NCBI GenBank assembly: GCA_009785335.1 | Contig: WQWM01000015.1 | Location: forward strand, 1 to 52,249 | DNA length: 52,249 bases | Direction: 5' to 3' | Origin: Oscillospiraceae bacterium | Lineage (GTDB): Bacteria; Bacillota; Clostridia; Oscillospirales; Acutalibacteraceae | Shown: positions 15,354 through 51,908 of the stretch, one piece after another | How the letters are laid out: each line of letters begins with the position of its first letter | Position numbering within the stretch: the stretch's first letter is position 1 | Position numbers and translations under genes: made by a program | The notes under the pieces: generated by a model | Databases searched by the model: none | The model's input: the letters and a program-made list of their open reading frames with translations, nothing else | What the model was told of the DNA's origin: nothing

Positions 15354-15382
15354 ATTATACCACATCTTGGCGGTTATGTCAA
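15354..15382 (-). promoter_or_regulatory. Promoter of the rimP-nusA-infB operon
   Basis: On the minus strand TTGACA (15377-15382) and TATAAT (15354-15359) are 17 bases apart. The TTGACA is part of the last two codons of the upstream regulator gene. Confidence 0.85.
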
Positions 15383-16195
15383 GTGTTCCGCAAATAAAAT
15401 TTTCGCTGCTTGTTGCAGTGTCTCATCGCTGCTGTTGATTGTTTCGCGGCGAATGCGTCGCCAATCTTCGCCAAGAAAATCGAAGAAATATTCTGCGCGG
15501 GGATGGTGATATAGCGCATGCAGCAGCAGCCACAACACTTCGTTGATAAGCTGTTGATGGCGCTCAGGCTGCGACGAAACCATCACGGCGATGTGCTCGC
15601 GGCCGGCACGCATGCGCGGCATTTCGGCCAGAATTTGCTCGCATTCTTCCTGTCTTACGGGGTTGCCGAGCGGCCCGCCCGGTTCAAGCGGCTGCGCAAG
15701 GCTATGCAGATACATCACAAACACCCGCTTTGCCCACATGCGCACGCTGTCATCCGTGCAGTGTTCTATGATATTTTCGTAGATTTCGCGCACTTGCTTT
15801 TCAACTGCAAGTGCTTCATCAAGCCCGCTTGTGTTCATCAGCAAGCACTCCATGTAGCGCATCCACAGGCGGTAATCTAGGGGATAATCCGCCACAGCAG
15901 CCTTTAGCGCAGGCAAAAATGTTTGCGATTGCGGCTTTTGTGACTTATCGTAGGCTGTGATAATTTCCTGCACACGCCGCTCATTTTTGGCTTGGTTGAT
16001 GCCCAGCAAATCGTCAACCTTCACGCCAAACAAGCCCGCCAGCACGGGCAGCATGGTGATGTCGGGGTAGCTTTCGTTGCGTTCCCAATTGCTGATGGTT
16101 TGGAAGGACACATGCAGGCGTTGGGCGAGTTGCTCCTGCGTTAGCCCTGCGGCCAGACGCAGGCGGCGCACGGTTTCGCCAAAGTAAAGTTTCAT
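15374..16195 (-). CDS. XRE-family transcriptional regulator with C-terminal sensor region
   Basis: A 273-residue protein. Residues 1-65 form a Cro/CI-type helix-turn-helix (LRLAAGLTQEQLAQRLHVSF, then QTISNWERNESYPDITMLP, the typical recognition region). The remaining 200 residues are helical and may be TPR-like; no enzymatic motif is seen. A promoter (TTGCTT-17-TATACT) lies upstream. It has a relative at 18007 with the same domain order. The target operon is unknown; proximity to the rimP promoter does not show regulation. Confidence 0.85.
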   Translation of the reverse strand: MKLYFGETVRRLRLAAGLTQEQLAQRLHVSFQTISNWERNESYPDITMLPVLAGLFGVKVDDLLGINQAKNERRVQEIITAYDKSQKPQSQTFLPALKAAVADYPLDYRLWMRYMECLLMNTSGLDEALAVEKQVREIYENIIEHCTDDSVRMWAKRVFVMYLHSLAQPLEPGGPLGNPVRQEECEQILAEMPRMRAGREHIAVMVSSQPERHQQLINEVLWLLLHALYHHPRAEYFFDFLGEDWRRIRRETINSSDETLQQAAKILFAEHLT

Positions 16196-39740: not shown

Positions 39741-40358
39741 TTACAGGCCCACAGCGCGCAACAGCATCAGTGTCACGCCCACAACCATATCCCACACGCC
39801 AAGGGTGTTGCGGGTGGTGTTGTCGTGCATAAAAATCTGTGCCCAAAAATAGGTGCCGCTGGCCGCATGGAAATATACCCCATGCCCCACATGCGTGTGA
39901 TTGCCCAGCAGTGCGTCGCGGTGTGCAGGGGAGTTCATCCAGCTGGTCACTGCACGGGCAGCATCTGCGGGGTTGGCACCGCCGCTGATGCGTGCGAGGT
40001 TTTCGCTGGCGTGCGCAAAGCCGGTGACACCATGCGGTGCCAGCACGCTGTGCCAGATTTGTCCATTGGGGCGTGTGTGGCTCCAATTTTGTGCGGCCTC
40101 ACGTGCACGCACGGCAGCGGCAGCGTTGAGTGCCGCATGCTCGCGCACGGCTGGACGGAAGTTCATGCGGCGTTGATTGTTGGTTAGGCGAAGCACATCG
40201 CGGATTTGTCTGTTCGTGCTGGTGGCAGAAGTTGCTGACGGCATCACGCGCCCAGCTGCATGCACCATATCACGGGTGACTGCAATGCTGGCGGTGGCCG
40301 GCAGCGCAAAGGTCATCAACAAGCCAACAGTTAGGAATAGGGCAAAAATCTTCTTCAT
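39741..40358 (-). CDS. Secreted CAP-domain (SCP/PR-1-like) protein
   Basis: A 205-residue exported protein with signal peptide (residues 1-23) and a CAP domain: the NNQRRMNFRPA strand, SHTRPNG, HASENLARISGG, MNSPAHRDALLG and GHGVYFHAASGTYFWAQIF. These carry the conserved His and Glu residues of the CAP cavity. A possible C-terminal helix (VVGVTLMLLRAVGL) could anchor it. Bacterial CAP proteins act at the surface or in spore coats; here it follows another CAP gene by 20 bases. Confidence 0.9.
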   Translation of the reverse strand: MKKIFALFLTVGLLMTFALPATASIAVTRDMVHAAGRVMPSATSATSTNRQIRDVLRLTNNQRRMNFRPAVREHAALNAAAAVRAREAAQNWSHTRPNGQIWHSVLAPHGVTGFAHASENLARISGGANPADAARAVTSWMNSPAHRDALLGNHTHVGHGVYFHAASGTYFWAQIFMHDNTTRNTLGVWDMVVGVTLMLLRAVGL

Positions 40359-40377
40359 GCAAAGCCTCCTTCAAGGG

Positions 40378-41505
40378 CTATAGTCTGAGTAAATTCAAGT
40401 TGAAAATAGCAGAAAACACAATGGAAAGCAGCGACAGGAAAAAGTCTGCAGTGCGCCCAAGCGGGGTGTTGTTTGCCGGCGGTTGGGGCGTGGCGATTGT
40501 TGTGCTGGTTGCTGCTTGCGTGGTGGTTGTTGCGCCGGTGGCCATGGTCAAGTTGGTCGATGTGGTGGTGGCCGTAGTGGTTGCGCCGGGTATGGTAGTG
40601 ACCGTGGTCGCGCCCGCTGCCGTGGTAGTTGGCATGGTGGTTGAAGTCGTTGCACCAGGCGCAGTTGTGGTAGTTGCCGCAGTGGTCGTTGTTGTCGCAC
40701 CAGGCAAGGTAGTAGTTGGCATGGTGGTTGTCGTGGTGGTCGCACCCGGTGCCGTGGTTGTTGTTGGCGCGGTGGTTGTTGTCGTCGCACCAGGCAAGGT
40801 TGTGGTGGGTAGTGTTGTTGTGTCGTGAACACCGGTCGTGAGCGTTGTTGTGGTGGTTGGCGCAGTGGTCGTTGTTGTCACACCGGGCGCAGTTGTGGTA
40901 GTCGGCGTGGTGGTAGTAGTTGGTGCGGTGGTTGTGGTTGGTGCAGTTGACGTTGTGGTAGTCGTGGTGGTTGTGCCGCCTGGCGCAGTGGTCGGGGGGA
41001 AGTTTTCCGGCGCAAAGGTGAGGAAAACTTGCACCCAATAGAAGCGCCCGTTGTGTTCATACACACCAACGGCGAGGTGATTATACCTGCCGCTGCGTTC
41101 AATGGTGTTGCGGTGCATCGTTGAGTTAAGGAATCTACTCAAGGCAGCAGAGGGCTGCGCAGAAATTTGGCTGGGCAGCAGGTTTTCATTGGCAAGGGCA
41201 GTAGGAAGCCCGTATTCGAACAGCAAAAATTCAAAGATGTCGCCATCGGGGCGCAGGTGATTGTCAATTTGATACCGTGTGAGCAAGTGCATCTCGGCAG
41301 CGCGAGTGTTTGCTGCGGCTTGTGCATCGGCACCGCCATGCAACAACGCAGGCAGTCCCATGTTCACGCGGTGAGCGTTGGTGAGTGCGAACAGTTCGGC
41401 GGCAAGATCGGGTTGCTGTTGGGCTTGGGCAGGCATGGCAATTAGGGCAATGGCGGCGGTGCAAGTGAAAATGAGCATGCTGGCTAACGCGATAAATTTT
41501 TTCAT
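40378..41505 (-). CDS. CAP-domain protein with a long threonine-rich tail
   Basis: A 375-residue protein: signal peptide (residues 1-28), CAP domain (LTNAHRVNMGLPALL, RYQIDNHLRPDGD, STMHRNTIERSG, AVGVYEHNGRFYWVQVF, approximately residues 35-165) and then a low-complexity tail of Thr with Pro, Ala and Gly (approximately residues 170-325), ending in a hydrophobic helix (ADFFLSLLSIVFSAIFNL). The tail is mucin-like and would be a stalk, possibly glycosylated, with the end helix as anchor. Repetitive DNA codes the tail, so length is probably variable. Confidence 0.88.
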   Translation of the reverse strand: MKKFIALASMLIFTCTAAIALIAMPAQAQQQPDLAAELFALTNAHRVNMGLPALLHGGADAQAAANTRAAEMHLLTRYQIDNHLRPDGDIFEFLLFEYGLPTALANENLLPSQISAQPSAALSRFLNSTMHRNTIERSGRYNHLAVGVYEHNGRFYWVQVFLTFAPENFPPTTAPGGTTTTTTTTSTAPTTTTAPTTTTTPTTTTAPGVTTTTTAPTTTTTLTTGVHDTTTLPTTTLPGATTTTTAPTTTTAPGATTTTTTMPTTTLPGATTTTTAATTTTAPGATTSTTMPTTTAAGATTVTTIPGATTTATTTSTNLTMATGATTTTQAATSTTIATPQPPANNTPLGRTADFFLSLLSIVFSAIFNLNLLRL

Positions 41506-42588: not shown

Positions 42589-43344
42589 TTATCTAATCTC
42601 CAGTGTCATTAAAATACTATCTTCTGTAGGCTTGCTGTAGTAGCTCGGGCGGCTGCCCACAACTTGATAGCCTCGCTTTTCATATAAAGCGCGTGCGGCG
42701 GTGTTGCTTGGGCGCACTTCTAAGTGCACTTTGGTGCAGCCGCGCAGCACTGCATTTAGCTCAGCTTGTGCCAGCAGTTTGTTGGCAATGCCGCGGCGCC
42801 GATAATCAGCCGCGACATCAATATCAACAATGTCGGCCTCATCAACAACTTCGTTCACGCTAATGCAGCCAGCAACGTTATCGTCTACCAGTGCAGTGAG
42901 CGCGTGACTGGCATGCCCGATGCAAGCGGCAGGCACAATTTGCGCCGTGCAGTGTAAGTCTCGCAGCAGCGCGGGCATGGCAGCCTGCATTTGTGCAGCA
43001 CAGGCGCGGTAGTCCTCTAGCGTGCCGCCAAAGGGGTCGGCAATTCCGCCGCCCAGCAATCGCAATTTCGCATGCGGCACATGGTCGGCGATGGTGAGCG
43101 CGTGGTTGCGCGCAAGGCAGATGATGGCATCAGCCCAATCCAGCAACGCTTGCGTAAGTTGCTGCGCCGCGTGCGACGAAATATCGCAGCCAAGTTCGGC
43201 TGCTGCAGCAATGCTGTGCGCACTGGCAGGGCTGCCTGGCCACGCTGCAATGCCCGCAGATTGCACGCAAAATGCCTTGTGAAATAGCGCAGCAGCAAGC
43301 GGGCTGCGGCAGGTGTTGCCGGTGCACAAAAACAGCACATTCAT
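42589..43344 (-). CDS. Low-molecular-weight protein phosphatase fused to a RimI acetyltransferase domain
   Basis: A 251-residue fusion. Residues 1-125 match LMW protein phosphatases (YwlE/Wzb type): the Cx5R loop CTGNTCRS at residues 7-14 and the DPFGG acid segment near 103-107. Residues 130-251 match RimI-type GNATs (DIDVAADYRRRGIANKLL, then RALYEKRGYQVVGSRPSYY). RimI acetylates the N-terminus of ribosomal protein S18 and is usually beside tsaD, as here; the phosphatase part is normally a separate gene. GAGG precedes the ATG by 9 bases; a longer frame has no such site. Confidence 0.88.
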   Translation of the reverse strand: MNVLFLCTGNTCRSPLAAALFHKAFCVQSAGIAAWPGSPASAHSIAAAAELGCDISSHAAQQLTQALLDWADAIICLARNHALTIADHVPHAKLRLLGGGIADPFGGTLEDYRACAAQMQAAMPALLRDLHCTAQIVPAACIGHASHALTALVDDNVAGCISVNEVVDEADIVDIDVAADYRRRGIANKLLAQAELNAVLRGCTKVHLEVRPSNTAARALYEKRGYQVVGSRPSYYSKPTEDSILMTLEIR

Positions 43345-43521
43345 CAGAGCATACCTCATCGTATAGGATAACACAAATCGCACAAAAATGCAAGCTATTT
43401 TTTTTGGAAAATCGAGAAAAAACCGAATTTTCGAGGGAATTTTTCCAAAAACGGCAATTTCGCGCAAAAAAGTGCGCAGAAATTGGGGTTTTGTTGGATT
43501 ATATGGAGGGGGTGATTACGA
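43345..43521. other. AT-rich leader region with weak promoters
   Basis: Toward the minus strand TTGCAT-17-TATCCT upstream of the phosphatase-RimI gene. The remaining 130 bases before the phage module are A/T rich and contain GGAAAATCG...CGAATTTTC and similar imperfect inverted repeats; no gene seen. Confidence 0.5.
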
Positions 43522-43827
43522 GTGGCGGAAAAAAATCAGCTGGAAGACGTGCTAAAAGGCTACCGAAAATTGGCGTTTGGCGAGAGCAATGATGCCCTGA
43601 AATTGCTGTTTATGGGCGAAGATGTGAGCTGGAGTGAACTGGAAGATTTGGATGTGTTTAACATCAGTGAAATTACCCGTGCCAAGCAGGGCGGCAACAT
43701 GGTGATCAAATTCTACAACCGCTTTGAGGCCATGCGCCATTTGGTGGAAGTGGGCGGCCTGGCACAGGTGCCGCAAGGGGTGAAGATGTTCTACGATGCC
43801 ATTGAGCGGAGCATTGATAGCAACTAG
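43522..43827 (+). CDS. Putative small terminase subunit lacking the DNA-binding domain
   Basis: A 101-residue protein with GTG start behind GGAGGGGGTG. The segment LEDVLKGYRKLAFGESNDAL, then FNISEITRAKQGGNMVIKFY and NRFEAMRHLVE, resembles the C-terminal oligomerisation part of XtmA/PBSX-type small terminases (IxxIKExKxGxxxVKFxDKxxAL). The N-terminal helix-turn-helix expected for sequence-specific packaging is absent. It precedes the large terminase, as TerS genes do. Alternatively it is an unrelated phage accessory gene. Homology is inferred from pattern only. Confidence 0.55.
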   Translation: MAEKNQLEDVLKGYRKLAFGESNDALKLLFMGEDVSWSELEDLDVFNISEITRAKQGGNMVIKFYNRFEAMRHLVEVGGLAQVPQGVKMFYDAIERSIDSN

Positions 43828-43834
43828 AGCCTCG

Positions 43835-43911
43835 TGTAGGGGCGACAATCTGTCGCCCGTGGGTTTTCCGCCTGCCATCAACAGGCCGGGCGGCTAATAG
43901 CCGCCCCTACA
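43835..43911. repeat. R1 paired-hairpin repeat between small and large terminase
   Basis: TGTAGGGGCGACA/TGTCGCCCG, spacer, CGGGCGGCTA/TAGCCGCCCCTACA. Confidence 0.85.
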
Positions 43912-43983
43912 CGAGAATTAACGAAAAATCAAGGAGGAGATTTTGTAAAATTCGTCAGTTTTTCGAAAAACCAAGCAACAGCA

Positions 43984-45201
43984 ATGAACTGGTGGCACAG
44001 GCGCAGTCCGCATGCCGGGCGTGACGCACTCGTTTGTGATGGCGCGGTGCGCTCGGGCAAAACGCTGAGCATGTGCGTGGGGTTCTTTGGCTGGCTTTCG
44101 CATGAATTCGACGGGCAGGCGTTCGCAATTTGCGGCAAAACGATGACCTCATTGAGAAGAAATATCGTTTCGCCCATGCTGCCAACGCTGCGCGGGTTGG
44201 GTTTTGACTGCGAGGAGAAAATTAGCAAAAACTATCTGGATATCAAATTTGGACACAGGCAAAATCGGGTGTACTTATTCGGCGGCAAAGACGAAGGCTC
44301 GGCCGCGCTCATCCAAGGCATGACTCTGGCAGGTGTGCTGTTTGACGAAGTGGCACTAATGCCGCGCAGCTTTGTGGAGCAAGCCATTGCACGCTGCTCA
44401 GTCACCGGCAGCAGGTTGTGGTTCAACTGCAACCCAGAATATCCGCAGCACTGGTTCTATCGCGAGTGGGTGCTGAAGGCGCAGGAAAAAAACACGTTGC
44501 ACATGCACTTTACCATGGATGACAACCCAAGCCTGGACCCTGCTATTCGCAATCGCTACAAAGTGCTGTATTCCGGTGCGTTCTACAAACGCTTTGTTGA
44601 GGGCATTTGGGCGGGCAGCGAAGGCGTGGTTTACCCGATGTTCGAACCCGGTACGCATGTGATTCACGAGCAGCCCAACTGCGGCAAGCATGTGATTAGC
44701 TGCGACTACGGCACGGTGAATCCAAGCAGCTTTGGTCTGTGGGGCGAGGCCGACGACGGCACTTGGGTTCGCTTGGCGGAGTATTACTGGGATTCTCGCG
44801 CCAATGCCATGCAACGTACAGATGAAGAACACTATCGCGCGCTGGAGCAACTGGCGGGTGAGCGGCAAATCAGCTATGTGGTGTGCGACCCCAGCGCGGC
44901 AAGTTTTATCGAGTGCATTCGGCGGCATGGGCGGTTCACGGTGATTGCCGGCAAAAACGATGTGGTGTCAGGCATTCGCCAAGTTGCCGATGCGCTACGC
45001 GAGGACAAGCTGAAATTTCACGCAAGCTGCAAAGACTGCATTCGCGAGTTTGGGGCTTACACTTGGGAAAGCGGCGGTGGTCGCGACGCACCGCGCAAAG
45101 AGCACGATCATGCCATGGATGATGTGCGCTACTTTGTGGCTACGGAGTTTGGCTTGCGCGGCGGCGAGGATGGATTTTTTGCGGGAGCGATAAAAAGATG
45201 A
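43984..45201 (+). CDS. Large terminase subunit (PBSX/XtmB type)
   Basis: A 405-residue TerL from the first ATG, missing a short N-terminus. Walker A GAVRSGKT, Walker B GVLFDEVALM, and the RNase-H-like nuclease acidic sites SCDYGTVNPSS, VCDPSAASF and HAMDDVRYF are all intact. The frame continues upstream without a stop and encodes VSFSKNQATA, which matches the conserved family opening. GGAGGAG at 43933-43939 is followed 5 bases later by GTA in frame, not by a start codon. The GTA could be a mutated GTG or a sequencing error; otherwise the ATG at 43984 has no ribosome binding site. Confidence 0.9.
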   Translation: MNWWHRRSPHAGRDALVCDGAVRSGKTLSMCVGFFGWLSHEFDGQAFAICGKTMTSLRRNIVSPMLPTLRGLGFDCEEKISKNYLDIKFGHRQNRVYLFGGKDEGSAALIQGMTLAGVLFDEVALMPRSFVEQAIARCSVTGSRLWFNCNPEYPQHWFYREWVLKAQEKNTLHMHFTMDDNPSLDPAIRNRYKVLYSGAFYKRFVEGIWAGSEGVVYPMFEPGTHVIHEQPNCGKHVISCDYGTVNPSSFGLWGEADDGTWVRLAEYYWDSRANAMQRTDEEHYRALEQLAGERQISYVVCDPSAASFIECIRRHGRFTVIAGKNDVVSGIRQVADALREDKLKFHASCKDCIREFGAYTWESGGGRDAPRKEHDHAMDDVRYFVATEFGLRGGEDGFFAGAIKR

Positions 45202-45210
45202 GGGCACGCG

Positions 45211-45273
45211 TGTAGGGGCGGATATCATCCGCCCGTGCCTCTTCATCTCGTTATCAAAATCCCGGGCGGCACA
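45211..45273. repeat. R1 repeat (right arm degenerate) after the large terminase
   Basis: TGTAGGGGCGGATAT/ATCCGCCCG hairpin and a truncated CCCGGGCGGCAC end. Confidence 0.75.
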
Positions 45274-45300
45274 GAGAAAGATTTTAGTCAGGAGGAATTT

Positions 45301-45360
45301 ATGGCGAGAGAAACACAGGCGCGTCGCAGGGCCGTGGATAGGACACAGCGAAGCGACTAA
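45301..45360 (+). pseudogene. Remnant of a short phage gene cut by an R3 repeat
   Basis: AGGAGGAATTT precedes an ATG; the frame reads MARETQARRRAVD and then RTQRSD, where the last part and the TAA are the R3 core GGACACAGCGAAGCGACTAA. It resembles the first codons of the portal gene (MARKKDK). Probably a gene fragment truncated by repeat insertion. Confidence 0.5.
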
Positions 45361-45713
45361 AGTTTTTTTCGCCACCCCCTCAGACACGCCTTTCGGCGTG
45401 CCAGCTCCCCCGCAAGCGGTGGAGCCTTTGGCAACACCTACGCATCCCTATAAAAATCCCCCGCGAAGCGCGAGCTCAAACGCAGTGCCCAGAATAGGAC
45501 ACAGCGAAGCGACTTAAAAGTTTTTTGGTTCTTTTTTCGCCCCCCTCAGACACGCCTTTCGGCGTGCCAGCTCCCCCGCAAGCGGTGGAGCCTTTGGCAA
45601 CACCTACGCATCTCTATAAAAATCCCCCGCGAAGCGCGAGTTCAAACGCAGTGCCTAGAATAGGACACCGCGAAGCGACTAAAGTTTTTTGGTTCTTTTT
45701 TTCAAAAAAGAAC
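45337..45713. repeat. R3 repeat block (two and a half copies) upstream of the portal gene
   Basis: No gene. Units of CAGACACGCCTTTCGGCGTG, GCGGTGGAGCCTTTGGCAAC, TATAAAAATCCCCCGCGAAG and CACAGCGAAGCGAC are repeated at 45371, 45541 and end in the hairpin GTTCTTTTTTTCAAAAAAGAAC (45692-45713), 17 bases before the portal start. Confidence 0.85.
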
Positions 45714-45730
45714 AGAAAAAGGAGGTAGAC

Positions 45731-46933
45731 ATGGCGAGAAAAAAAGACAAGCCTTTGGACGAAGGCAAATGGGCCAGAGGCGCAACACGTCCGCTGCGCA
45801 AGGCCTATGATGGGCTGATGGGCGGGTTGGCGCGCAGCAGTGTGGATGGCGGTTTTGGCAGCGAACAAGCCGTGTGGGCAGGCGAAACCCGCATGCCGGC
45901 TGCGCAGGCTGCGTTGTATCGCGGGCTGCGTGAATCGGTGCCGATTATCGATGCGGCAATCATGCGGCTGGTACGACTGGTGGGCGGTTTCACGGTGACT
46001 TGCGAGGACGAAGCCGTGCAGCAGCGGCTCAACGACACCTTGGAGATGATCAGCGTGGGCGGCACACAACGCGGCATTGCGGCGTTTATCAGCAGCTATT
46101 TTGAGCAGCTGCTGACCTACGGCACGGCAATCGGTGAGCTGGTGCTGCGCGAAGACGGCGAACCAGCCGCCCTGTGGAATGTGCCGCTTGAAGGCATCAC
46201 GTTTCGGCGGGCAAAAGACGGCATCACCGTGGAAATCTGCACGGGCGAACAGGGCAAGCTGCGCGCCGCGCCGCACCCCGAGCTGCTGTGTTGCAGCGTG
46301 CTTAACCCCGCGCCGGGTGCGCTCACGGGCAATTCGCTGCTGAAAGGGCTGCCGTTTGTGGCCGGTGTGCTGCTGCAAATTATGGACACCATTGGGCTGA
46401 ACTGGGAGCGCTTGGGCAACGTGCGTTTTGCGGTGACTTATCATCCCGGCAACGACCCAACCGAACAAGCACGAGCGGGCGAACGCACGAAAATCATCGC
46501 AGAGGAATGGGAAAAAGCCATGCGTGAGGGCGCGGCCGTGCGAGATTTCATTGCCGCGGGGGATGTGCGCATTTCGGTCATCGGCGGTGATGTGCCGCTG
46601 CCCGACAGCCAAACGCCCGTGCGACAACTGCTGGAGCAAGTGGTGGCGAAAACCGGGCTGCCGCCGTTTTTGCTGGGGCTAACGTGGAGTTCTACCGAGC
46701 GCATGAGCAGCGTGCAGGCAGACCTGCTCACCAGCGAACTGGAAAGTTATCGTCGCACATTGACGCCGGTGATTGTGCAGTTGTGTAAGACGATTCTGCG
46801 GCTGTGGGGCGAAAGCGCGCACTGCACCTTAGCGTGGAATGACATCACCCTAGCGGATGAAATTGACCTTTCACGCGCACGGCTGGCGCGGGCGCAGGCG
46901 GCGCGCATTGAGGCTGAGGTTGCGGGGGAGTAG
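45731..46933 (+). CDS. Phage portal protein
   Basis: A 400-residue protein that fits HK97/SPP1-type portals: an N-terminal basic region (MARKKDKPLDEGK), a central fold with PIIDAAIMRLVRLVGGF, YGTAIGELVL, the long stem/crown helices (LLKGLPFVAGVLLQIMDTIGL, approximately residues 200-220) and the clip-wing end ERMSSVQADLLTSELESYRR. It forms the 12-subunit channel for DNA packaging and binds the large terminase. Start is ATG at 45731 with AGGAGG 5 bases before; the earlier ATG is inside the hairpin. Confidence 0.9.
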   Translation: MARKKDKPLDEGKWARGATRPLRKAYDGLMGGLARSSVDGGFGSEQAVWAGETRMPAAQAALYRGLRESVPIIDAAIMRLVRLVGGFTVTCEDEAVQQRLNDTLEMISVGGTQRGIAAFISSYFEQLLTYGTAIGELVLREDGEPAALWNVPLEGITFRRAKDGITVEICTGEQGKLRAAPHPELLCCSVLNPAPGALTGNSLLKGLPFVAGVLLQIMDTIGLNWERLGNVRFAVTYHPGNDPTEQARAGERTKIIAEEWEKAMREGAAVRDFIAAGDVRISVIGGDVPLPDSQTPVRQLLEQVVAKTGLPPFLLGLTWSSTERMSSVQADLLTSELESYRRTLTPVIVQLCKTILRLWGESAHCTLAWNDITLADEIDLSRARLARAQAARIEAEVAGE

Positions 46934-46946
46934 CTTGCTTGCGGAC

Positions 46947-47390
46947 GCGAAGTTTTTGCTACTTTTTTTGGAAAAAAGTAGCGCAAAAAAACTGACCTTG
47001 GCAAATATACGCCCTATAAAATCTATCACGAAGCGCGCGCCCAAATGCAGTGCCCGATAATAGGATACAGCGAAGCGACCTAACGCGAAGTTTTTGCTAC
47101 TTTTTTTGGAAAAAAGTAGCGCAAGAAAACTGACCTTGGCAAATATACGCCCTATAAAATTTATCACGAAGCGCGAGCCAAAATGCAGCCCCATAATAGG
47201 ACACAGCGAAGCGACCTAACGCGAAGTTTTTGCTACTTTTTTTGGAAAAAAAGTAGCGCAAAAAAACTGACCTTGGCAAATATACGTCCTATAAAATTTA
47301 TCACGAAGCGCGAGCCAAAATGCAGTGCCCATAATAGGACACAGCGAAGCGACTAAAGTTTTTTGTGCTACTTTTTTTCAAAAAAGTAGC
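46947..47390. repeat. Tandem array of a 136-138-base R3-derived unit (three copies)
   Basis: No gene. Units start at 46947, 47085 and 47221, each GCGAAGTTTTTGCTACTTTT, a TTGG-loop hairpin with AAAAAGTAGC, ACTGACCTTGGCAAATATAC, TATAAAAT and a CACAGCGAAGCGAC-like core. The last copy ends in GCTACTTTTTTTCAAAAAAGTAGC (47367-47390), 16 bases before the protease start. Confidence 0.88.
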
Positions 47391-47406
47391 AAGAGAGGAG
47401 AATAAC

Positions 47407-48273
47407 ATGGACATGTTGAAATCAGGCAAACAGGCAACACAGGCGGTGGGCACACCCACCGCAGAAGACTTGGCACTCATCCACAAGCACACACGCAAAA
47501 ACTTGCCGGCAGATGAACTTTATGTATTCAATGTCACATTGTGTGACAACCGTGTGGACCGCGACGGCGAGCGGTTTACTACGCAGTGCCTGCACGCCCT
47601 TGCGCCGATGTTCGTGGGCAAAACCGGCATGTTTGATCACAGCGGCAAAAGCGGCGACCAAACCATGCGTATCTACGACACCTTTGTGGAGGAGCAGGGG
47701 GATTACACCGCGCTTTGCGCCAAGGTGTATTTGCCGCGCAACGCCGACAATGCCGCGCTGATTGCCGACATCGATGCGGGCATCAAAAAAGAAGTGAGCG
47801 TGGCCTGTGCGGTGCAGAAAATCACATGCAGCGTGTGCGGCAAGGGCATGCGCGAGTGCACGCACAAACGCGGGCAGAGTTATGGCGGCGCAGCCTGCCA
47901 TGCCGTGTTGGACGAGCCCACAGATGCTTATGAATTTTCTTTTGTGGCGGTGCCCGCACAACCAGCTGCGGGCGTGCGCAAAAAAGCCGCCAAACGTGAG
48001 ACTGCATTCATCGCTGAGCTGGAGAAGCTTGCGGAAGACGGTCGGGTCTATCGTGCAGAACTGCTGGAGAAAACATTGCGTGCGGGCACAGCAGCCATGC
48101 CGGAAATGGATCGGGCACTGCTAGCAGCGATGGTGCAGGCACTGCCCACGCAACAGCTGAAGATGGCTTGTGATACACTGCGGGCAAAGGCCAAAGCAGC
48201 ACTGCCGTTGTGCGGCCAGCTGGTGAATCGCGAGCGTGCGGATTGCGGAGATAATGAAGGGTTTCGGGTTTAG
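47407..48273 (+). CDS. Phage prohead protease-like head maturation protein
   Basis: A 288-residue protein between portal and capsid genes, where HK97-type phages keep the protease. The N-terminal half has VFNVTLCDNRVDRDGERFT and GKTGMFDHSGKSGDQ, and the centre holds the typical CSVCGKGMRECTHKRGQ and AYEFSFVAVPAQPAAGV segment with two CxxC-like pairs. The C-terminal region (approximately residues 220-288) is helical. It most likely cleaves the capsid delta domain; the catalytic residues are not identified with certainty. ATG with GAGGAG 7 bases upstream. Confidence 0.75.
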   Translation: MDMLKSGKQATQAVGTPTAEDLALIHKHTRKNLPADELYVFNVTLCDNRVDRDGERFTTQCLHALAPMFVGKTGMFDHSGKSGDQTMRIYDTFVEEQGDYTALCAKVYLPRNADNAALIADIDAGIKKEVSVACAVQKITCSVCGKGMRECTHKRGQSYGGAACHAVLDEPTDAYEFSFVAVPAQPAAGVRKKAAKRETAFIAELEKLAEDGRVYRAELLEKTLRAGTAAMPEMDRALLAAMVQALPTQQLKMACDTLRAKAKAALPLCGQLVNRERADCGDNEGFRV

Positions 48274-48284
48274 AAGGCGCCTCC

Positions 48285-48618
48285 CTCACCCGACCCGAGG
48301 TCGGGAGCTCCCTCCAGAGGAGAGGAGCTGGGGCTTGCTTTTTCAACTCACATAAACAATCCCCCGCGAAGCGCAAGTCTAAACGCAGTGTCTTGGATAG
48401 GGCACAGCGAAGCGACGAAAAAGTTTTTTGGTTCTTTTTTACGCAACCCCCACCTGCACGTCTACGACGCGCTTTCCTCCCCCCAAGGGGGAGGCCTTGG
48501 CAACACCTACACATGCCTATAAAAATCAATCGCGAAGCGCAAGTCTAAACGCAGTGCCTTGGATAGGGCACAGCGAAGCGACGAAAAAGTTTTTTGGTTC
48601 TTTTTTTCAAAAAAGAAC
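48285..48618. repeat. Composite R2/R3 repeat block upstream of the capsid gene
   Basis: No gene. It contains CCTCACCCGACCCGAGGTCG-type and CTCCAGAGGAGAGGAGCTG units (also at 52050), two CGCGAAGCGCAAGTCTAAACGCAG copies, two CACAGCGAAGCGACG cores and the hairpin GTTCTTTTTTTCAAAAAAGAAC (48597-48618). Confidence 0.85.
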
Positions 48619-48648
48619 AAGAAATAAATCAAAAGGAGAAATAACACT

Positions 48649-49638
48649 ATGGCATTCGACAACATCAAACTGGACAAAGGGCTTTATTGCGTGGGCAAGA
48701 GCTTCACGCAGGCACTGGAGGAACTGGACCCCAGCGAAAACTACCACGGCACAGCATTGGAAGGCTTGGATTCTTATGAACGCCAACTGAAGCGCTTTGG
48801 CATTCGTGTGAGCGGTGCAAGCAGCGATCGTGTGGAAAAATTCTTCCAAAACGCGAACACAGCCACGCTTTTCCCTGAATTTGTTTCGCGCACGGTGAAA
48901 AAAGGCCTGACTGAATCTAGCCAGCTGGAACACATTGTGGCGGCAACCACGCAAATTGACGGCAATGACTACCGCAGTGTGCGTGTGGCGGGTGACGGCG
49001 CAATGATTACCGCAGAAGGCGAAGAAATGGCATCGACCACCATGCGCAGCAAAGAGGACCTGGTGGACATGAACAAGTTTGGCAGCGTGCTCAACGTGAC
49101 CTATGAAACACTGCGCCTGCACCGCATTGAACTGCTTGCGGTGATGCTGCGCAAAATCGGTGTGAGTTTTGCTTACAACGTGATGGAACGTGCCATTCAA
49201 GCGTTGCTGCATGGTGACGGCTCTGCCGCTGAACAGGCACCCGTGATTAGCCGCGGTGGTGCAACACTGACATATGCTGACTTGGTGGCGTTGTGGGGTT
49301 CGTTCGCAGGTTTCAGGATGGGGGCGATGGTCACCAACCACACCACCGCGCAGGAAATTCTTGCATTGCCCGAACTGCGCGACGGTGCTGCCGGTCTGGA
49401 TTTCCACGGCAGCGGAAATCTGGTGACTCCTCTGGGTGCGGTGCTGGTGGTGAACCCTGCCGTGAGCGGCAACCAAATCATCGGTGTGGACAACCAGAGT
49501 GCACTTGAGATGGTGCAAGCCGGCGGCATCATCACTGACTATGATCGCTTGATCGACCGCCAATTCCATCGCGCGGGCATCAGCACCACGGTGGGCTTTG
49601 CGAAGATCTTCCCGGATGCAGTGCGTGTGCTGGCGTAG
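48649..49638 (+). CDS. HK97-fold phage major capsid protein
   Basis: A 329-residue protein with an N-terminal helical part (residues 1-50, possible delta-domain remnant), then the HK97 pattern: FFQNANTATLFPEFVSRTVK (N-arm to E-loop entry), IVAATTQIDGNDYRSV, the spine helix SVLNVTYETLRLHRIELLAV and an A-domain end GVDNQSALEMVQAGGI. It builds the head shell. ATG with AAAGGAG, following the T-rich hairpin by 30 bases. The frame is intact and long, arguing against simple decay. Confidence 0.88.
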   Translation: MAFDNIKLDKGLYCVGKSFTQALEELDPSENYHGTALEGLDSYERQLKRFGIRVSGASSDRVEKFFQNANTATLFPEFVSRTVKKGLTESSQLEHIVAATTQIDGNDYRSVRVAGDGAMITAEGEEMASTTMRSKEDLVDMNKFGSVLNVTYETLRLHRIELLAVMLRKIGVSFAYNVMERAIQALLHGDGSAAEQAPVISRGGATLTYADLVALWGSFAGFRMGAMVTNHTTAQEILALPELRDGAAGLDFHGSGNLVTPLGAVLVVNPAVSGNQIIGVDNQSALEMVQAGGIITDYDRLIDRQFHRAGISTTVGFAKIFPDAVRVLA

Positions 49639-49652
49639 AGCTGGGAATCTCG

Positions 49653-49730
49653 TGTAGGGGCGGCAACCTGCCGCCCGGGGATTTTCCGGTTATCGTGAAG
49701 ACGAGCGGGCGGCTAATAGCCGCCCCTACA
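49653..49730. repeat. R1 paired-hairpin repeat after the capsid gene
   Basis: TGTAGGGGCGGCA/TGCCGCCCG, spacer, CGGGCGGCTA/TAGCCGCCCCTACA; nearly identical to the copy at 50164. Confidence 0.88.
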
Positions 49731-49757
49731 CAAGGGAAGAGAAAGAGGAGAGATAAC

Positions 49758-50153
49758 ATGAACCAACACACGGTGTTAGGGCAGCTGCGGCTGCTGGTGG
49801 AAATGACCGACAGTGAGGCGCACGAGAGCTTGCCGTTTTGCGCGGCTGCGGCTGAACAACTATTGTTGCAACTAAAGCGAAATGAAGAGGGCGAGTTGCT
49901 CAATCGCACTGACCCGCGTTTGAGCCGCGCGGCGGCATGTGCTGCGCTGGTGATGCTGCTGAATCGCCGCGAAAACAGTGAGGGCGATGGCGTGGAAAGC
50001 TTCAAGGCGGGGGATATTACTGTGAACAAGCGTGGGCAGGCCTCGCGTGATCGCTTGCGCATTGCCATTGCAGAACGTGATGCTGCCATGGCGGATATTA
50101 GCGAGCTGCTGCAGGATAATCGCTGGGGGTTTAAGGCGACAAGGGTGAAGTGA
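49758..50153 (+). CDS. Phage head-tail connector-like protein
   Basis: A 131-residue soluble, mostly helical protein (LGQLRLLVEMTDSEAHESLP, AAAEQLLLQLKRNEEGEL, RAAACAALVMLLNRR) placed directly after the capsid gene, where gp6-like adaptors are coded. The segment FKAGDITVNKRG is reminiscent of the adaptor family. ATG with AGGAGAG upstream; the longer frame enters the R1 repeat. Family assignment is by position and size. Confidence 0.6.
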   Translation: MNQHTVLGQLRLLVEMTDSEAHESLPFCAAAAEQLLLQLKRNEEGELLNRTDPRLSRAAACAALVMLLNRRENSEGDGVESFKAGDITVNKRGQASRDRLRIAIAERDAAMADISELLQDNRWGFKATRVK

Positions 50154-50163
50154 TGTGGGCGCG

Positions 50164-50241
50164 TGTAGGGGCGGCAACCTGCCGCCCGAGGATTTTCCGG
50201 TTATCGTTAAGATGAGCGGGCGGCTAATATCCGCCCCTACA
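50164..50241. repeat. R1 paired-hairpin repeat between two connector genes
   Basis: Near-identical to the copy at 49653, with one change (CTAATAT in place of CTAATAG) that weakens the stem of the right arm. Confidence 0.88.
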
Positions 50242-50267
50242 CAAGGGCAAAGAAAGAGGGAAATAGT

Positions 50268-50618
50268 ATGAACAACATGAACGTAACGCGCGATATTAAG
50301 CACATGATGGAGCGGTTTGGGCTGCAAGTGCGCGTGTGCTTGCCCGACGGCTGGCAAAGCGAAAACTTCGGCGCGTTTATTCAGCCGTTGCGCCACCGCA
50401 ACCGCATGTATCTGGGTGGTATCAACACGCGCATTGGCTTTAATCGTGAGGGGCACTACCTATATCTTGGGCCACCCGAGCACGATTTGACTCAGCTGGG
50501 GCGTGAAGCGTGGATTCAAAGCGGGGACGATAAATTCACCATTGACCGTGCAGAGATGGTGCACTTTGGCAACAAACCCAGCCACATTTGGGCGGTGGTG
50601 CGCAGCATTGTGGAGTGA
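50268..50618 (+). CDS. Phage head-closure or tail adaptor-like protein
   Basis: A 116-residue protein, strand-rich: a helix (DIKHMMERFGLQVRVCLPDG), beta strands (GAFIQPLRHRNRMYLGGINT, YLYLGPPEHDLTQ) and a final WAVVRSIVE. By size and place it is a head-closure (stopper) or similar protein. ATG behind AGAGGGAAATAGT, a weak site. Two methionines compete (MNNMNVTR). Confidence 0.55.
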   Translation: MNNMNVTRDIKHMMERFGLQVRVCLPDGWQSENFGAFIQPLRHRNRMYLGGINTRIGFNREGHYLYLGPPEHDLTQLGREAWIQSGDDKFTIDRAEMVHFGNKPSHIWAVVRSIVE

Positions 50619-51051
50619 TTTAATGCTTAATTCTTAATGCTTAGTGCTTAATGGTTCTTTTTCGCACCCCCTGTCACTGTGGTGAGGGGGATAGGGCTTG
50701 CTTTTTCAACTTATCATAAAAAATTCATCGCGAAGCAGAAGTAAAAGTTTTTTGGTTCTTTATTCGCCCGCCCCCTCAGACACGCCTTTCGGCGTGCCAG
50801 CTCCCCCGCACGCGGTGGAGCCTTTGGCAACACCTACACATCCCATAAAAAACAACTCAATCGCAGTGCCCGGAATAGGACACAGCGAAGCGACTAAAAA
50901 GTTTTTTGTGTGTTAGCAACCCCCACCTGCACGCCTGCAACGTGCTTTCCTCCCCCTGAGGGGGAGGCCTTGGCAACACCTACGCATCCCTATAAAAATC
51001 CATCGCGAAGCGACTAAAGTTTTTTGTGCTACTTTTTTTCAAAAAAGTAGC
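50619..51051. repeat. R3 repeat block upstream of the tail gene
   Basis: No gene. It starts with TTAATGCTTAA-like tandem units (50620-50652), then two R3-type units (GACACGCCTTTCGGCGTG, TTGGCAACACCTACAC, CACAGCGAAGCGAC) and the hairpin GCTACTTTTTTTCAAAAAAGTAGC (51028-51051), 17 bases before the next start. Confidence 0.85.
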
Positions 51052-51068
51052 GAAAAAAGGAGAATAGA

Positions 51069-51908
51069 ATGAACAGTGCAATCAGTGCGCTGCCGGGGGC
51101 GGTTTGCCAATGGCTGAGCGAACAAGATCACCTGGTGGCGATGGGGCTGGAGTTTTTAACGGAATTTCCGGCACGAAACAAAGCCGTGCCGTTGCGCCGC
51201 CCGATTGTGGCGGTGGGCATGAGTTCGGTGAACATTACCGACAAGTTTGAGGAAAACGACAATGGCGTGCTGGAACGTCAGGAATATTGCCGCACGGCTA
51301 GCCTGCGTCTGCGGCTGGATATTCACGTGCCGTTTAGCGAAGGTGGCGAACGCTGCCATGAAATTTTTACCCGCGTGCTGGACGTGATGACATTTTCCAG
51401 CGACTTGGAGATTCGCGCCAGCGGCTGCCGGGAAATTCGCAGCCAGCGCGACACCGATGCCTTTGTGCTGGAATCCTGGGCAGATGTGCACGCGCAATTT
51501 TGCCCGGCCGAAAGCACAGGCATTGACTTCAAGTCGTTCATGTACAAAGAGCTGCTGTGCGGCAGTCACATTAACAACCGCGCCCTGCATTTGGATGAAG
51601 CTGATCGCGCGTGGATGGATAATCCCACCCGCACGGGCACCTATCTGGGCAATGGCGCAACCAGCCGAGTAATCAACCTGGGGTTTCGCCCGAGGGCTGT
51701 GTTTGCTAGCAGCATTGAGTCTGCGGCGGTGCAGGTGAATACGCTGCAATCGTGGTTTGGTTTTGCGGCGGGCAACTTTGGCAGCATGGGCGTGGAGATT
51801 TCGGCCAGCGGGTTTTTGGTGCGCAGCGGCGGGGGCTTCGCGAGCGGCAACATGATTCCGTCGATGAACGAGGACGGGCGGATGTATATGTATTTGGCGT
51901 TTGCGTAG
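51069..51908 (+). CDS. Phage tail-completion-like protein with a C-terminal beta domain
   Basis: A 279-residue protein. The N-terminal 150 residues (LTEFPARNKAVPLRRPIVAVG, SLRLRLDIHVPFSEGGERCHE) look like tail-terminator or minor tail proteins. The C-terminal part (residues 185-279) opens with TGTYLGNGATSRVINLGFRP, a pattern I associate with beta domains of phage tail and fibre proteins. ATG with AAAGGAG. Function by position only. Confidence 0.55.
   Translation: MNSAISALPGAVCQWLSEQDHLVAMGLEFLTEFPARNKAVPLRRPIVAVGMSSVNITDKFEENDNGVLERQEYCRTASLRLRLDIHVPFSEGGERCHEIFTRVLDVMTFSSDLEIRASGCREIRSQRDTDAFVLESWADVHAQFCPAESTGIDFKSFMYKELLCGSHINNRALHLDEADRAWMDNPTRTGTYLGNGATSRVINLGFRPRAVFASSIESAAVQVNTLQSWFGFAAGNFGSMGVEISASGFLVRSGGGFASGNMIPSMNEDGRMYMYLAFA

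Follow-up and report, generated by a model that had tools for sequence, protein, structure and literature searches.

A vertically inherited, gene transfer agent-like head module with a terminator-fibre fusion in a family of Clostridia

The closest described counterpart of the locus reported here is FpGTA, the gene transfer agent (GTA) of Faecalibacterium, which carries 8.4-8.9 kb of host DNA in 40-nm particles on which no tails have been identified (PMC12946183). Its chromosomal operon is listed in the order small terminase (TerS) without an obvious DNA-binding domain, large terminase (TerL), portal, scaffold and capsid; operon I comprises ten frames, while genes for baseplate, fibre, receptor-binding protein and lysis lie in a separate operon II, which is present in five strains and was undetected in seven (PMC12946183). 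Here we describe a module of eight genes at positions 43522-51908 of a 52,249-nucleotide stretch of DNA (the window), which is one whole contig (C15; WQWM01000015.1) of the 2.25-Mb draft genome, 90% complete, of an Oscillospiraceae bacterium (family Acutalibacteraceae). We put at roughly 60% the probability that this module is a captured prophage, kept by vertical descent as a host function and encoding a GTA-like particle whose tail is reduced to the neck; the particles that the cell probably makes would be small and lack a tail. In the open PubMed Central library, which leaves bioRxiv and most subscription journals uncovered, we found no paper on this module, PMC12946183 alone being close.

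The eight genes share one direction, and all of their frames are open: TerS-like, TerL, portal, protease, major capsid, g6, g7 and g8 (Table 1). TerL, portal and capsid have strong matches to phage families, and an earlier sequence-only reading, which had described head genes in classic order with intact frames, was right in this respect. The protease belongs to a family of unknown function (phrog_16951, 7e-78) and has a weak match (1e-6) to phrog_4523, a head/protease family, and the portal has a weak extra match to a Microcystis phage at 28% identity. No Pfam or PHROGs family was matched by g6, g7 or g8, and PADLOC returned no match for the six module proteins submitted. TerL is present in a single copy in the genome. 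Promoter- and terminator-like sites are about as numerous as in shuffled sequences.

The capsid gene is found in 11 of the 14 genomes of the genus, including all nine of high quality (9/9), and, with a single match in every case, in 112 of the 200 family genomes, spread over 79 of 135 genera; no internal stop occurs among the family matches listed. Across the order it is found in 71 of 394 genomes. We set a four-gene tree (TerL, portal, protease, capsid) against rpoB in 53 genomes, rpoB having been sought in 60 and seven excluded (three unmatched, four partial). Module and rpoB distances are strongly correlated (Mantel r 0.78, with 0 of 2000 permutations as high), and the two trees have 24 of 50 splits in common, against at most two in 500 shuffles. 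The window's genus is monophyletic in both trees with a support of 1.0; the outgroup members do not group together in the module tree. Taken together, these comparisons indicate long vertical descent of the module. Moreover, the ratio of non-synonymous to synonymous rates (dN/dS) of the eight genes, calculated for the single pair formed by the window and its sister species (G003), lies between 0.054 and 0.128, compared with 0.140 for the neighbouring tsaD, at dS values of 0.6-1.1 across all eight genes, which points to purifying selection on the module genes. The vertical conservation with low dN/dS that the sequence-only reading had named as a check is thus borne out.

The last gene, g8, appears to join two functions. 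Its N-terminal half has a terminator fold in the predicted model, and on this basis we assign it as a tail terminator; tail terminators form hexamers. The C-terminal half is fibre-like and is a probable receptor-binding part. Searching the PDB by sequence, the terminator profile (14 of the 20 available sequences) found no match and the fibre profile (15 of 21) a single weak match across 26 positions. Fibre domains occur once per genome in 9 of the 14 genomes of the genus, always on the contig that carries the module, and no second fibre domain was found in the window's own 90% complete genome. We find the fusion in 19 of 78 family loci from eight genera, G012 being assigned by reading. On the rpoB tree (48 tips) a single change accounts for it, where 1000 shuffles require at least eight, and on the module tree (71 tips) two changes do so, where shuffles require at least ten, so that a single origin is well supported by the phylogenies. 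We consider it an even chance that these features amount to a new body plan, in which the tail is gone, the terminator ring bears the receptor-binding fibres, and one fusion, inherited through at least eight genera, marks one end of a range of tail reduction in a vertically inherited Clostridia GTA, a range that runs from sheath, tube and baseplate by way of tube and baseplate to the fusion and to heads alone.

That range is evident from gene order in 78 loci from 77 family genomes, selected mainly to spread across genera. Sheath, tube and baseplate are found together in four of the 78 loci, tube and baseplate in 18, and baseplate without a sheath or tube match in 21, many of the latter having 400-900 bases able to hold a diverged tube; a further nine are more reduced, and seven are cut by a contig end. 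The idea that the longer form has neither tube nor sheath is therefore partly wrong, since four loci have both and 18 have a tube. The longer relative L011, for example, encodes a baseplate hub as well as Baseplate_J. Baseplate genes are gone in the window's genus and in seven other genera, where the terminator has become joined to the fibre's distal part, and Baseplate_J has no match anywhere in the window's own genome, as far as its 90% completeness allows. Sheaths are also present in 10 of 20 loci examined (from 36) in other families of the order, where the match of L303 arises by construction because the sheath profile was built partly from it. The four sheath-bearing family loci are scattered on the module tree, requiring four changes where shuffles require a mean of 4.9; this lends no support to a simple one-way sheath loss and indicates that sheaths disappeared repeatedly or came back. 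Apart from the fusion, no order of loss among the tail parts is well supported. In family f26, loci L298-L302 and L306 show another short form, consisting of head genes, g6 and a baseplate-hub-like gene, and host-like genes then follow in the three that were read (L298, L300 and L306); this is possibly a separate tail reduction.

The TerS-like protein matches Pfam Terminase_2 below the cut-off (0.003), covering profile positions 64-128 of 141, and its N-terminal segment is missing in both the window and the sister genome. We take this segment to be the DNA-binding part, as in its family. The sequence-only reading had noted a TerS without a DNA-binding domain, which holds for these two genomes but not generally, since 45 of the 74 family loci retain the segment (a crude pattern detects it in 43, and G010 and G013 were added by eye); its loss is therefore recurrent and not required for persistence of the module. 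The TerL frame remains open upstream of its first ATG (43885-43984), where it contains a conserved FSKNQ stretch and no ATG, GTG or TTG. The true start probably lies upstream of 43984, and a rare start codon is possible. ATPase and nuclease motifs of TerL are recognisable by reading.

Signs of mobility are scarce around the module. An integrase was not found by Pfam among all 36 open reading frames (ORFs) of at least 120 amino acids outside the module in the window, as the sequence-only reading had stated, nor in the sister flanks (four downstream ORFs by Pfam, others by eye), and neither integrase nor replication genes accompany the module in these two places, the downstream flank of the window being cut by the contig end at 52249, 341 bases past the module. 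The same reading had reported no repressor either, which is strictly incorrect because an Xre/Cro-type regulator lies at 15374-16195; nothing, however, links this gene, about 28 kb away, to the module. The sequence-only reading had suggested looking for tail genes beyond the contig end; in the sister species tsaD precedes the module, which stops at the terminator-fibre fusion and is directly followed by genes for YbeY, a protein weakly matching 4Fe-4S, and PhoH. We also considered tsaD as a fixed neighbour and rejected it: the gene is upstream in G000, G001, G003, L006 and L011, but G006 and G011 have it on a different contig and G115 at a distance of 1.5 Mb. Other clades have recurring neighbours of their own inside 6 kb, which by reading are hflX-like (13 genomes), argG-like (8) and argH-like (8) genes. 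Among 50,697 phage records the capsid is found in five, all unannotated faecal contigs; in the two that were read, both filed as phage, a ribosomal-protein operon lies beside the module (L318, MT835508.1) and host-like genes precede it (L319, MT835952.1). These data bear on whether the module could be a capsid-forming satellite, which would build its own heads and borrow tails from helper phages. Head genes without tail genes would suit such an element, and satellites of this type have a similar head set. We nevertheless regard this explanation as very improbable, given housekeeping neighbours in the sister, the absence of an integrase from the 36 window ORFs, one copy per genome co-diverging with rpoB across many genera, and a terminator with a fibre at the very site to which a borrowed tail would attach.

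The gaps between the genes measure 156, 532, 476, 375, 116, 114 and 450 bases with the starts of portal (45734), protease (47410) and g6 (49755) picked by comparison with relatives; the earliest possible starts shorten three of them. At least one R1 or R3 core lies in each of the seven gaps, as the sequence-only reading had observed, and none of the 16 cores falls within a gene with the chosen starts, the R1 core at 49720 lying inside g6 if its longest frame is used. R3 is a host repeat, with 188 copies in the 2.25-Mb genome (at most two mismatches) compared with 19 for the reversed pattern, a control that covers R3 alone. Nine R3 copies are seen in the 8.4-kb module, where about 0.7 are expected, and all are on the plus strand. 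In the module gaps (45202-51068), R3 is thus enriched more than tenfold and oriented along transcription throughout. The corresponding gaps in the sister (L003/G003) are 72, 22, -1, 120, 80, 93 and -4 bases. Since these are tight, the loose spacing is best attributed to a later invasion of host repeats in the window's lineage, and the repeat-filled gaps fail as the sign of domestication for which they had been taken. The proposal of a domesticated particle with GTA-like features is supported on other grounds, namely vertical inheritance, low dN/dS, no integrase and the missing TerS segment.

Table 1. Coordinates and assignment basis of the module features and of recombinase-like genes in two relatives
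Feature	Coordinates	Strand	Basis or remark
TerS-like small terminase (101 amino acids)	43522..43827	+	weak Terminase_2 match and comparison with relatives
TerL, large terminase	43984..45201	+	phrog_2 8e-50; Terminase_6N 4e-13
Portal	45734..46933	+	phrog_30703 4e-111; earliest possible start 45689
Putative head maturation protease / scaffold	47410..48273	+	phrog_16951 and position; earliest possible start 47365
Major capsid protein	48649..49638	+	phrog_3922 4e-74; PF25209 3e-12
g6, neck adaptor-like	49755..50153	+	position alone; kept in relatives; earliest possible start 49695
g7, neck stopper-like	50268..50618	+	position alone; kept in relatives
g8, putative tail terminator fused to fibre-like C-half (279 amino acids)	51069..51908	+	N-half and C-half assigned separately
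Seven gaps with 16 R1/R3 host-repeat cores	43828..51068	none	
Serine-recombinase-like gene, L029	L029:1930-3369		about 7 kb upstream of TerL
Serine-recombinase-like gene, L074	L074:6521-8059		about 2 kb upstream of TerL

Outside the module, window positions 42589-43467 encode a low-molecular-weight tyrosine phosphatase joined to a GNAT acetyltransferase in one protein, which adjoins tsaD. Within 39741-41505, a CAP-domain protein (Pfam) is encoded at 39741-40358, and a longer protein beside it, with a long threonine-rich repeat and no Pfam match, resembles it by reading.

We propose that an ancestor of this Clostridia family captured a prophage long ago and passed it on vertically. Its genes still code for a DNA-packaging head made with portal, protease and capsid, and for a terminase motor that has its catalytic motifs. 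A small head would be built and loaded with host DNA by TerL, with little sequence choice in this species because TerS is without its presumed DNA-binding segment. The products of g6 and g7 would seal the portal, and a ring of g8 would cap the neck and display the fibres. Lysis would then free the particles, which would bind related cells and deliver their DNA, presumably to some benefit of the host.

Several observations weigh against this account. Foldseek TM-scores of the g8 N-terminal half are moderate (0.27 to 0.58), the full-length model of g8 is poor (pLDDT, the predicted local distance difference test score, of 47.8) and unusable, and the C-terminal half owes its proposed fibre role to its position and to weak matches. 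Neither lysis genes nor regulatory genes were identified, no genome-wide search for either having been made. In addition, the congener G008 (L156; 93% complete), which is fast-evolving and on a long branch, has no TerS at the locus and no TerL match genome-wide, while retaining portal, protease, capsid, g6, g7 and the fusion; this may be a capsid that has given up packaging DNA, or decay at an early stage. This genome favours the view that the capsid was domesticated for another job, as a protein container or an antagonistic particle rather than a DNA shuttle, as does the loss of tail parts in many lineages, and PBSX is reported to package DNA without injecting it (PMC12946183). We find this possible but unlikely, because TerL (dN/dS 0.066) is as constrained as the capsid (0.071) in the species pair and is found in 11 of 14 genomes of the genus.

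Other points of this kind concern the integrity of the locus. The portal of G007 is split over two frames, perhaps through an assembly error, and the capsid gene is unmatched in 88 of 200 family genomes, including 58 of 158 of high quality. Broken frames in other strains, which the sequence-only reading had considered adverse to its proposal, may be present in G007; frames are open in the family matches listed. Together with tail genes missing to varying degrees and the degraded appearance of G008, G007 and some reduced loci, these data could suggest a decaying prophage remnant whose frames are open by chance. Such decay is highly unlikely when dN/dS is 0.05-0.13 at the divergence seen in all eight genes, when family matches have open frames, and when the fusion is retained across eight genera. 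Finally, in two IMG/VR relatives, L029 and L074, TerL is preceded at some distance by a serine-recombinase-like gene (Table 1), a crude motif for which is found in 2 of 80 viral-contig loci compared with 0 of 78 family loci; this gene may point to mobile relatives or belong to an unrelated element nearby. The sister G003 also has a Baseplate_J gene on another contig (G003:C13:35252-36607) and a second TerL of 40% identity (G003:C16:17040-18137), perhaps belonging to another phage element. An active prophage with its remaining genes on another contig would accommodate these recombinases and the early end of the window's contig, but it is the least probable of the explanations, as the sister runs on into YbeY and PhoH genes, Baseplate_J is unmatched in the window's own genome, and the pattern of descent is vertical. 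We therefore continue to prefer a captured prophage, maintained as a GTA-like host function.

On this preferred reading, a GTA-type module is traced across the family as a whole (79 of 135 genera sampled), and its phylogeny shows long vertical descent. Tail-less DNA delivery, if true, would change the requirements for a transducing particle, and the naturally occurring series of ever simpler tails points to parts that are open to testing. The module may also bear on the packaging of host DNA seen in gut viromes.

Compared with known systems, the module differs from the GTA of Rhodobacter capsulatus (RcGTA), which has a tail and a baseplate, neither of which the window module encodes. PBSX of Bacillus subtilis is likewise a domesticated head, with contractile-type tail parts, and keeps sheath, tube and baseplate, whereas the window keeps none of these and longer relatives such as L011 have baseplate genes. 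Capsid-forming phage-inducible chromosomal islands (cf-PICI) resemble the window in that they bring along their own genes for head and packaging but none for a tail; they integrate, excise and borrow helper tails, whereas no sign of mobility is seen in the window. Faecalibacterium belongs to the same order as the window's host. It was not recognised among our genomes: a 16S primer matched 24 of 394 genomes of the order with at most one mismatch, none exactly among those listed, and a butyryl-CoA transferase primer matched 0 of 157. FpGTA is like the window module in gene order and in a TerS without a DNA-binding domain, a likeness drawn from its description; it is unlike it in its ten-frame operon I and perhaps in having operon II in five strains, and the sections of that paper considered here make no mention of any fusion of terminator and fibre (PMC12946183). 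Because the gene order listed for FpGTA agrees and because vertical inheritance is combined here with a head, terminase and neck architecture without visible mobility, we call the module GTA-like. It would thus be known in kind, and what is new is the putative neck-borne fibre, the spread of the module and its vertical descent.

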